This document shows, in pieces, positions 38,302-41,639 of a stretch of DNA of 64,000 bases (its first letter is position 1; each line of letters begins with the position of its first letter). Source of the DNA: Dermatobacter hominis (lineage in GTDB: Bacteria; Actinomycetota; Acidimicrobiia; Acidimicrobiales; Microtrichaceae); contig NZ_CP085840.1 in the NCBI RefSeq assembly GCF_020715685.1, positions 3,100,001 through 3,164,000 on the forward strand, read 5' to 3'. The position numbers and the translations under genes were made by a program. Under the pieces are notes generated by a model, which saw nothing but the letters and a program-made list of their open reading frames with translations, had not been told where the DNA came from and did not search any database.

Positions 38302-38568
38302 GTGCGCCGCTCCATCGACGACGACCAGGTCCCGCTGCCGCCGCTGCCCGAGGACGAGATCGAGGAGGACGAGCTCGTCCCGGTCAACTGGGCCGTGTCG
38401 ATCTGCGACGACTACGACGACGCCGAGGGTCGGGTGCAGCTGCTCGTCGAGGAGGTCGGCGCCGACCGCACGCCGATGGTCGCCCACCTCGACGCCGACC
38501 GCGCCCGCCGGCTCCGGCTCGCGCTGGCCTCGGCGCTCAAGGAGCTGGGCCAGGACACCGGCCGCTGA
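38302..38568 (+). CDS. Small acidic hypothetical protein, 88 aa
   Basis: From the GTG. The first 30 residues are very acidic (PPLPEDEIEEDELVPVNW), followed by WAVSICDDYDDAEGRVQLLVEEVGADRTPMVAHLDADRARRLRLALASALKELGQ, a small alpha-beta domain. I do not recognise it. The regular composition and its own -10 hexamer support a real gene. Followed by a stem-loop. Confidence 0.65.
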   Translation: MRRSIDDDQVPLPPLPEDEIEEDELVPVNWAVSICDDYDDAEGRVQLLVEEVGADRTPMVAHLDADRARRLRLALASALKELGQDTGR

Positions 38569-38630
38569 CCGGCGCCGGAGCCGGGCCCGACAAAAAGTGG
38601 CCAGGACGAGAAGTGGCCCTGACGAGAAGG

Positions 38631-38667
38631 TGGCCAGGACGAAGAGGGGCGATCTCCGTCCTGGCCA
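38631..38667 (+). terminator. Inverted repeat within a short direct-repeat patch
   Basis: TGGCCAGGACG (38631-38641) pairs with CGTCCTGGCCA (38657-38667) around a 15-nt loop. Two earlier copies of the left arm (38598-38608 exact, 38614-38624 with changes) precede it, so several alternative stems are possible. The region 38569-38864 otherwise holds no gene. Confidence 0.65.
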
Positions 38668-38775
38668 GCGTCAAGCCTCTCCCAAGGGCGGCCGACGGGG
38701 CCCAGTGTGGCCGAACCGGGACCGCCCCGACACCGCTCGAACGGCCGTCGAGGATCAGGTTTGCTCGCTCGTAGC

Positions 38776-38821
38776 GAACGTTCTCTCTTTACGGGACGGC
38801 GTCGTGCGGCAGCCGTAGTCT
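38776..38821 (+). promoter_or_regulatory. Candidate promoter of the first double-TetR gene
   Basis: The 8-bp palindrome GAACGTTC (38776-38783) could be an operator. A -10-like TAGTCT (38816-38821) follows, and the gene has GGAGAGGAG just before its GTG. This is suggestive only. Confidence 0.3.
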
Positions 38822-38864: not shown

Positions 38865-40184
38865 GTGGGAGACGGACACGGATCCGACGGCGACGCGCCC
38901 GTCGACGGGGCGCCGTCGCGCCCGCGCGCGCGGCGCGGGACGGCCCGGGAGCGGCTGCGGGAGGCGTCGGCGCGGCTGCTGAGCGGCGCGACGCTCGACG
39001 ACGTCACCGCGTTCATCACGGTGAACCGGCTCACCGCGGCGTCCGGGCTCTCGAGCGGTGCGATCTACTCGGCGTTCGCGTCGGACGGCGCCCGCAGCGC
39101 GCCGCAGGCCGCAGCCCGGCAGCTCTTCCTGTCGATCCGTCCGCAGGACGACCCGATGGTGATCGAGATCCTCGAGCAGCTCCACGGGTCGATGGACGAC
39201 GCCGACGACGCGGAGCAGCGGTTCGTCGAGACGCTGGCCGAGCTCGCGGCCGCCCCGGTGGTCGCGTCGGCCCGGTCGTCGGAGCCCTGGGACTACACGC
39301 ACCTCTGGCTGGCGGCGGCGGTCGCCATCAACGACGAGGAGGTGAGGGACGCCGTCCGGCACGTGTACGTCGAGAACACGCGCACCTACGAGCGGGCGAT
39401 CGCCCGGGCGCTCGAGCTGGTCGGCCGGACGCCGGTGGAGGGCATCGACATCCACATGCTGGCGAGCATGCTCGTGGCCGGGGCGGACGGCGCGGCGGTG
39501 CGGCTCCGGTTCGACCCCGACGCCGACCCCGACCTCGTGCGGCTCACGTACCTGTCGACGATCGCCTCGATGACCCGGCGCGTCGACGAGGCCGACGACC
39601 TCTTCGCCAGCCGCGTGATCTCGTCGTACCGACCGCAGCCGCAGCCGGTCCACCTCGACGACGTGCGCGACGCGGTGCGGGCGGTCGACGAGCGCGAGGG
39701 GTGGGCCGCCGTGACCGTGACGCGCATCGTGACCCTCACCGGCATCGCCGAGTCCGCGTTCGTGGCGATGTACCCGACCCGCCACCACCTCGCGACGTTC
39801 ATCTGGGACGACGTGCTCGGCACCGTCGAGCGGCGGGCCCGCGCCCGGCAGTCGCTCGACGCATCGGTGCAGGTCGTCGAGCTCGTGGCGGACCTGGCCG
39901 AGACCGCATGCGCCCGGAGATCGCTGGTCGCATCGCTGCTGACCGCCCGCCTCCACGCCGCCGCGACGTCGGACGGCGCCGTGCTCGACCCGTCGTCGGA
40001 GCGCCTCGTCGGCCTGCTCGGCTCGCTGCTCGAGGGCGACGAGGCGCTGCGGACGGTCGCGGCCCGCACCGCGGTGGACGGGCTGCTCATGGCCGCAGCT
40101 GCGGCGGACGCCGAGGCCGAGGAGCTGGCCCGGGTGCTCATCGCCGGGCTGGCGTCGATCAGCCGCTCGGCCCTCGGAACCTGA
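38865..40184 (+). CDS. Double TetR-like regulator, copy 1
   Basis: 439 residues, about twice the length of a TetR protein. Near residues 26-70 lies a TetR-type DNA-binding unit: TARERLREASARLLSG then FITVNRLTAASGLSSGAIYSAF, where LSSGAIYSAF matches the GxxxxxlYxhF recognition helix. A second such unit occurs near 263-320: DVRDAVRAVDEREGWAAVTVTRIVTLTGIAESAFVAMYPTRHHLATFIWDD. Helical ligand-type regions follow each. The start GTG has GGAGAGGAG upstream. A paralog of the same layout is encoded 69 nt downstream. Ligand and targets unknown. It could also be a non-regulatory protein that kept the fold. Confidence 0.72.
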   Translation: MGDGHGSDGDAPVDGAPSRPRARRGTARERLREASARLLSGATLDDVTAFITVNRLTAASGLSSGAIYSAFASDGARSAPQAAARQLFLSIRPQDDPMVIEILEQLHGSMDDADDAEQRFVETLAELAAAPVVASARSSEPWDYTHLWLAAAVAINDEEVRDAVRHVYVENTRTYERAIARALELVGRTPVEGIDIHMLASMLVAGADGAAVRLRFDPDADPDLVRLTYLSTIASMTRRVDEADDLFASRVISSYRPQPQPVHLDDVRDAVRAVDEREGWAAVTVTRIVTLTGIAESAFVAMYPTRHHLATFIWDDVLGTVERRARARQSLDASVQVVELVADLAETACARRSLVASLLTARLHAAATSDGAVLDPSSERLVGLLGSLLEGDEALRTVAARTAVDGLLMAAAAADAEAEELARVLIAGLASISRSALGT

Positions 40185-40253
40185 ACCACGCTCGGTCGCG
40201 CGCCCCGGGCCGGTCCTCCTACGCTCTCCGGCGGGAGAGGGAGGGAGGTCGAG

Positions 40254-41639
40254 GTGACGGACAACGAAGGGCGCGCCGCTCCGCCGGAGGGAGCGGCGCA
40301 ACCGACCGTCCGCGGGACCGCTCGCGAACGGCTCCGCGACGCGGCGCGCCGCCTGATGACCGAGGCCACCCTCGACGACCTCACGTCGTTCATCACGGTG
40401 CGCCGCCTGACCGAGGACACGGGCCTGTCGAGCGGTGCGGTGTACTCCGCCTTCGCACCCGACTCCGGCGTGGGATCGCGCTCCCGCAGCGCGCCGCAGG
40501 CGGCGGGGCGCGCCGCGTTCTGGTCGCTGCATGCCGAGTCCGATTCGCTCGTGTCGTCGCTGCAGGGCCTGTTCGACTCGGCGATCGACGGTGCCGGGCT
40601 CGAGGGGCTCGAGCTGCTCGAGGGCGTCGCCGAGCTCCTGACGGGACCGATCACCGACGCCGCCCGCGGGACCGACGGCGAGGGCGGGTGGAGCTACACG
40701 CAGCTGTTCCTCGGTGGCGCGGTGGCGCTCAACGACCGCGAGGTCGCCTCGTTCCTGGGCCGGTCGTACGAGGGCTACGACCGGGCCTACATCCCCGGCC
40801 TCGAGGTCCTGCTGCGGCTCGCCGGCCGCGAGCTCGTCGACGGCGTCGACCTGCGGCAGTTCGCCCAGATGCTCGTCACCGCCGCCGACGGCTGCGCGCT
40901 GCGGCTGCGCGTCGACCCCGACCTCGACCCGGCGATCGTCCGCCAGATGTACCTGGCGGTGTGGATCGCGATGACGCGCCGCGCCGACGTCCGGGACGAC
41001 CAGCTCGGGCACCGGCTCGCCATCGCCGGCCAGCGCCCGCTCGACGACGAGCAGCAGGACGCGGTCCGCCGTGCCGTGCTGCGGGTGCACGGCCGGGCGG
41101 GCTGGCCCGCGGTCACGCTGGCCAAGGTCGCCCAGCTGTCGGGCGTGTCCGACGCCCGGCTCGCGGGCCGCTATCCGAGCCGCCACGACCTGGCCGTGAT
41201 CGTCTGGGACGACGTCGTCGCCGGCGTCGAGCGGCGGGACGCGGCCCGCTCGGCCCTGCCGGCCGACATCCGGCTCGGGGCGCTGCTCGAGGACGTGTGC
41301 GACACGGCGTGCTCCCAGCGCGCGCTGATGGCCTCGCTGCTCATCGCCCACCTCAACTCGACCTCGGAGCAGATCGCCGACGCCGACGACCCCGGGTCGC
41401 ACCGGATGGTCGAGCTCCTGGCGTCGTCGATCCTGGCCACGGCCGAGCACGGGGGCGTGGACCTCTCCGGCCCGTCGATCCCGACCGCGGCGGGCGACGG
41501 GTTCCGGGTGATGGCGCGGGCGACGCTCGACCTCGTGCTGCTGCGGTCGTCGACCTCGACGATGGCCGGCCACGAGATGGCGGCGCTGATCGTCGACGGC
41601 ATGGTCGGCGCCGGCGTGGTGGTGGGTCCGCTGGAGTGA
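40254..41639 (+). CDS. Double TetR-like regulator, copy 2
   Basis: 461 residues. Same layout as the upstream gene: TARERLRDAARRLMTEATLDDLTSFITVRRLTEDTGLSSGAVYSAF near the start, and DAVRRAVLRVHGRAGWPAVTLAKVAQLSGVSDARLAGRYPSRHDLAVIVWDD in the middle. The two proteins align over their whole length, so the tandem arose by duplication of an already fused gene. Preceded by GGGAGGGAGG near its GTG and by a possible -10 TACGCT (40220-40225), so it can have its own leadered promoter. Confidence 0.72.
   Translation: MTDNEGRAAPPEGAAQPTVRGTARERLRDAARRLMTEATLDDLTSFITVRRLTEDTGLSSGAVYSAFAPDSGVGSRSRSAPQAAGRAAFWSLHAESDSLVSSLQGLFDSAIDGAGLEGLELLEGVAELLTGPITDAARGTDGEGGWSYTQLFLGGAVALNDREVASFLGRSYEGYDRAYIPGLEVLLRLAGRELVDGVDLRQFAQMLVTAADGCALRLRVDPDLDPAIVRQMYLAVWIAMTRRADVRDDQLGHRLAIAGQRPLDDEQQDAVRRAVLRVHGRAGWPAVTLAKVAQLSGVSDARLAGRYPSRHDLAVIVWDDVVAGVERRDAARSALPADIRLGALLEDVCDTACSQRALMASLLIAHLNSTSEQIADADDPGSHRMVELLASSILATAEHGGVDLSGPSIPTAAGDGFRVMARATLDLVLLRSSTSTMAGHEMAALIVDGMVGAGVVVGPLE

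Follow-up and report, generated by a model that had tools for sequence, protein, structure and literature searches.

Two adjacent genes in the window (the whole 64,000-nucleotide stretch of DNA analysed here, bases 3100001-3164000 of a single-contig genome of 4.66 Mb) raise the question of whether one polypeptide can hold two TetR-type DNA-binding units and, if so, what kind of operator such a protein would read. The two genes, here called A and B, lie on the same strand with B downstream and a spacing of 69 bp, and their codon-position GC contents (0.756/0.519/0.968 for A and 0.768/0.516/0.963 for B), typical for high-GC genes (third position 0.96-0.97), support both as genes. The original prediction, drawn from the sequence, had described them as neighbouring paralogs with two TetR-type helix-turn-helix (HTH) units per protein, and both statements were borne out: the proteins share 44% identity across 386 aligned positions (E 7e-93), identifying them as tandem paralogs, and each chain contains two TetR units, as detailed below (coordinates in Table 1).

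Table 1. Features of the A/B locus (positions in the window) and fused double TetRs elsewhere in the same genome (positions as indicated).
Feature	Position	Strand	Description and support
Hairpin/inverted repeat	38631..38667	.	TGGCCAGGACG...CGTCCTGGCCA, loop GGGGCGA; 37 nt; conserved in congener
Candidate operator	38760..38785	+	TTTGCTCGC-TCGTA-GCGAACGTTCTC; conserved before A in congener (L041 2866-2891), flanks diverged
Gene A	38865..40184	+	Double-TetR protein, 439 aa; GTG start; ORF list, family alignment, profile, fold match
First HTH unit of A	38943..39071	+	Residues 27-69, predicted helices a1-a3; family alignment, sub-threshold TetR_N, low-confidence AF2 helices
Second HTH unit of A	39645..39770	+	Residues 261-302; alignment, AF2 model, profile
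Gene B	40254..41639	+	Double-TetR protein, 461 aa; GTG start; ORF list, alignment, fold match
First HTH unit of B	40320..40457	+	Residues 23-68; AF2 model, alignment, profile
Extra segment of B unit 1	40458..40490	+	Residues 69-79, a3 (recognition helix) to a4; alignments
Second HTH unit of B	41046..41171	+	Residues 265-306; TetR_N 276-313, TetR fold over 266-454
Fused double TetR	L015 560-1906; C1 about 3654.4-3655.7 kb		Two canonical TetR_N domains
Fused double TetR	L016 440-1834; C1 about 3300.2-3301.6 kb		
Fused double TetR	C1:4087269-4088522		

Searched as single proteins, A and B gave sub-threshold TetR matches. Pfam TetR_N matched A in unit 1 only (residues 52-73, E 0.01, below the curated cut-off) and B best in unit 2 (E 2.3e-4, 21.3 bits versus a cut-off of 24); NCBIfam TetR-type models on B unit 2 were likewise sub-threshold, and a PDB sequence search with the single proteins as queries returned no useful match. 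Because of these low single-protein scores, neither protein was listed in a whole-genome TetR_N scan at E 0.001. Profiles revealed both halves. A profile built from the first seven relatives matched TetR structures over 254-451 (best E 2.6e-8), and in a 19-member double-TetR profile, 17 of whose members matched TetR_N at E 0.01, the second half matched 3ang over 256-443 (E 3.7e-15), while the first half matched 2gfn (best stretch 8-231, E 3.5e-11) and NalD (6-229, E 4.8e-8). When profiles of the N- and C-terminal halves were compared with each other, the alignment ran through the HTH (probability 96%, E 3.9e-9). Each chain is composed of two TetR units, the second with a clear TetR fold and the first weaker on its own, though aligned from end to end with solved TetR proteins by the 19-member profile. 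The TetR/AcrR DNA-binding domain was identified by profile matches on both halves, and the all-helical C-terminal ligand/dimerisation domain by fold in half 2 (266-454) and by sequence profile only in half 1 (2gfn, 8-231). Compared with ordinary TetR proteins, unit 1 is longer by about four residues in the stretch joining helices 1 and 2, a trait of the wider group. In A, B and the proteins nearest to them, alignments show a further segment that separates the recognition helix from helix 4; in B this segment ends in an invariant Arg-Ser, and most of the wider double TetRs lack it. The usual recognition-helix Tyr is absent from unit 2 in both proteins, and the Arg preceding helix a4 is present in both units.

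AlphaFold2 models, computed from shallow alignments of only 4-5 sequences, had mean pLDDT values of 61.8 for B and 62.4 for A, with a good second half; helices were predicted at both HTH positions, yet HTH1 had a pLDDT below 50, and confidence between the halves was low (pTM 0.45 and 0.39 for the two proteins). Residues 266-454 of B superposed on T. thermophilus FadR (3ang) with Z 15.5 and rmsd 3.2 over 180 residues. A second unit lacking an HTH, the outcome that the original prediction had named as its refutation, was not observed, and this unit is the better supported of the two. Using Foldseek, the top PDB match of A was Mce3R (9b7y_A; 449 columns, E 2.9e-3), which ranked fifth for B (465 columns). 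Together with the alignment and the profiles, this whole-chain match indicates two complete TFR units per polypeptide. The Mce3R matches had E values of 0.003-0.008, identities of 13-16% and a superposition rmsd of about 23, so that the models do not predict how the halves are placed relative to each other: the architecture is supported, the assembly is not.

The layout itself is thus already known, and the statement in the original prediction that no described family has it was wrong: Mce3R (Rv1963c) of M. tuberculosis is a double TFR with a 2024 cryo-EM structure (PDB 9b7y), and about 204 putative double TFRs have been predicted among Actinomycetes (PMC11667970). Its single chain folds as an asymmetric TetR-like omega with one ligand-binding domain and two non-identical HTHs, paired intramolecularly (M1-M2), on a 25-bp non-palindromic operator that requires both HTHs; M1 alone gave no operator binding, and the complex homodimerises further (PMC11667970). 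The M1 mutant R53A also lost binding. A and B are a new example, a divergent double-TFR subfamily lying under the Pfam cut-off and carried as a tandem pair. The Mce3R structure means that the mechanism proposed in the original prediction, a built-in pseudo-dimer on an asymmetric operator, had already been published for a relative; it is plausible for A and B.

Our preferred reading, with a probability of about 0.65, is that A and B form an operon of single-chain, pseudo-dimeric double-TFR repressors that act on an asymmetric operator and are likely autoregulating; within it, we infer pseudo-dimer assembly, DNA binding, autoregulation and the ligand. The two TetR units of each chain would pack via their own last helices, like an ordinary TetR dimer of separate chains, and the packed chain would present two unlike recognition helices to an asymmetric operator, with one half-site common to A and B and the other half-site different. 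The simplest target would be the promoter of the pair itself, through the conserved element at 38760-38785, and release would follow when a small ligand enters the composite ligand pocket.

The genomic setting bears on what the pair might control. In most of 33 family genomes hemE (minus strand) and a UvrD-like helicase gene (plus strand) are divergent neighbours, and the gap between them, often 150-600 bp, contains an 88-aa ORF and, in some genera, also a 2-hydroxyacid dehydrogenase. In the window this gap, at about 4.7 kb, accommodates the dehydrogenase as well as A and B, which lie between orf88 and the dehydrogenase. Since the corresponding gap of relatives lacks the pair, either A and B joined an old locus at a later time or the others lost them. 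The orf88 product (38302-38568) is acidic, 88 aa long and without a Pfam match; the gene lies next to hemE in at least nine family genomes, with 55-72% identity, and seems to be absent from the congener. The only close relatives of the pair to be found were in this congener, the same-genus MAG SZAS-1 (G001), where A runs off one contig and resumes on the next ahead of B, and in G015, from one related genus within the family. A closer-relative profile search for related loci returned the SZAS-1 MAG only and no viral contig, and a search of B against plasmids gave no match.

Alignment of the region preceding A with the congener showed two conserved blocks amid drifting sequence. One is the candidate operator, a 17-bp imperfect palindrome with asymmetric flanks located about 80-105 bp before the A start codon; the consensus with the congener is TTTGCTCGC-N5-GCGA(A/G)CGTTCTC, the two sequences being identical except for the spacer and one A/G, a conservation that rests on two genomes. 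The window contains a single copy of the element, against a chance expectation of 0, and its size and position are those of a TetR operator, which would be consistent with such a function. A genome-wide regulon search with it gave no second site above the control pattern. The other block is the hairpin, which differs from that of the congener by two compensatory A-T to G-C pair changes with the loop kept, and which may be a terminator, an RNA leader or a second operator. It occurs once in the genome, and its interpretation as a repeated genomic element was rejected on that count. The Rfam matches of the hairpin were all sub-threshold and at chance level; for this reason, and as the upstream region, taken as a whole, folded no better than shuffles (z -1.56), an RNA reading was dropped. 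Three direct repeats of about 16-17 bp, of the GTGGCCAGGACGAGAA type, lie at 38594-38650, the last overlapping the left arm of the hairpin; one copy only of their core was seen in the congener. In relatives that lack the pair, the intervals from hemE to the helicase showed neither the candidate operator nor the hairpin.

These observations also weigh on the possibility, unlikely in our view but a real one, that the pair controls not itself but genes located far away, or else the neighbouring dehydrogenase, hemE or helicase. It would fit with the retention of the dehydrogenase and helicase as neighbours of the pair in G001 and G015, but hemE, dehydrogenase and helicase hold their places in relatives without the pair, and genome-wide the candidate site is closely matched only before A, the one 3-mismatch match elsewhere being at the level of the control pattern.

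We then compared the two HTHs of each protein. A and B agree at 33/46 positions of HTH1 (72%) but at only 14/44 of HTH2 (32%; Fisher p 0.0003 for the contrast), with 37% and 31% identity in the ligand domains. B and its congener ortholog share 67% of HTH1 (31/46) and 73% of HTH2 (32/44), whereas the corresponding values for A are 63% and 38%, the latter pointing to rapid evolution of HTH2 in A; judged from sequence, this HTH may be losing constraint. In other genomes, the members of a tandem array keep HTH1 and HTH2 about equally well (55-78%). With HTH1 nearly the same and HTH2 very different, A and B most likely have one half-site in common and recognise different second ones, and the economical reading of these sequences would be a common half-site together with a second one that has changed or been relaxed. 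A paralog pair with one HTH kept and the other changed offers a natural experiment on the way in which single-chain repressors acquire asymmetric specificity. More tentatively, and with the odds clearly against it, the pair might work combinatorially, the common HTH1 binding a shared half-site and each HTH2 a private one, so that A and B would be rivals for overlapping asymmetric operators or divide these between them; if so, tandem double-TetR duplication, seen in four lineages, would be a repeatedly used way of gaining new asymmetric specificities.

The same comparison makes it improbable that one HTH binds DNA and the other is a degenerate remnant serving dimerisation or ligand sensing. That would account for the poor prediction of HTH1 and the extra loop after it, for an HTH2 without the usual Tyr and diverging fast in A, and for scores under the Pfam cut-off in each protein; however, no segment is better conserved between the paralogs than HTH1 (72%), and the HTH2 of B retains 73% identity between species, so that neither HTH of B looks plainly decayed, and the Arg before helix a4 is retained in both units. 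Equally doubtful are symmetric dimers, in which each unit would meet its like in a second copy, first with first and second with second, or A would join B in this way; such a protein would have two palindromic specificities and might span two sites. This arrangement was considered and left open before the Mce3R structure, and the closely similar HTH1 of A and B would suit A-B pairing through unit 1, but Mce3R, to our knowledge the only double TetR with a solved structure, pairs within its chain, with no operator binding by M1 on its own, and no palindromic second site was found near A/B.

The single-chain, autoregulating reading is favoured by the matches of both halves to TetR and to each other, the fold of the C-terminal half and the whole-chain match to Mce3R, for which this mode of action is proven, as well as by the HTH1/HTH2 contrast, the conserved, genome-unique upstream element, the 69-bp same-strand spacing and the absence of both element and pair from the hemE-helicase interval of relatives without the pair. 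Weighing against it are the modest AlphaFold2 confidence, the unpredicted placement of the halves, the 4-5-sequence folding alignments, the missing Tyr in unit 2, the 38% retention of HTH2 in A and an operator derived from two genomes. If it is wrong, A and B would be an ordinary pair of divergent local regulators.

Distant double TetRs were detected with a strict cut-off in 13 of 397 sampled genomes of the order (about 3%) and, at E 1e-20, in at least 5 of 296 genomes of the sampled phylum, a lower bound with five candidates scored per genome; such counts are likely too low because these proteins score below the Pfam TetR cut-off. Further members in the same order (G089, G160, G238, G092, G401, G196, G347, G021 and G011) and in the genome of A and B resemble the pair in having two units and the same length and in being mostly alignable end to end; they are about 16-24% identical to B, and their HTH1 is mostly canonical, without the insertion. 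Tandem arrays occur in three other genomes, G089 (three genes), G160 (two) and G238 (two); array loci with two or three double-TetR genes each, all from other members of the order, are L045 4050-9705, L046 2654-5634 and L047 3368-6233. The genome of A and B encodes at least three additional fused double TetRs (Table 1) and also carries two adjacent, unfused single-unit TetR paralogs (L017 351-1867; C1 about 2762.2-2763.7 kb), possibly a picture of the step before fusion.

Among known systems, ordinary TetR/AcrR repressors such as FadR (3ang), KstR (5ua2/5cxg) and RolR (3aqt) resemble A and B in the way the second half folds (Z 13-15.5 over 160-182 residues) and in the sequence profile of both halves, but have one HTH per chain and act as homodimers of identical chains on palindromes. 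GplR1, an 'unusual TetR-like' factor, was rejected as a precedent, its described structure being that of a classic TetR with one HTH. In engineered single-chain Tet repressors, two TetR units are reportedly joined in one chain, man-made from one sequence, whereas the units of A and B are natural and strongly diverged. The closest parallel in architecture is Mce3R, with two complete TetR units in a chain of about 400-460 aa and a site (in A/B a candidate one) about 100 bp before the gene; its autoregulation is known, that of A and B probable. Since no mce genes were seen among the ORFs flanking A/B and identity to Mce3R is low (13-16% by Foldseek), we class A and B as double TFRs rather than as Mce3R orthologs. 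Unlike Mce3R, which is encoded by one gene, they form a tandem pair of paralogs, and their first unit carries a longer a1-a2 segment and an extra segment after HTH1.
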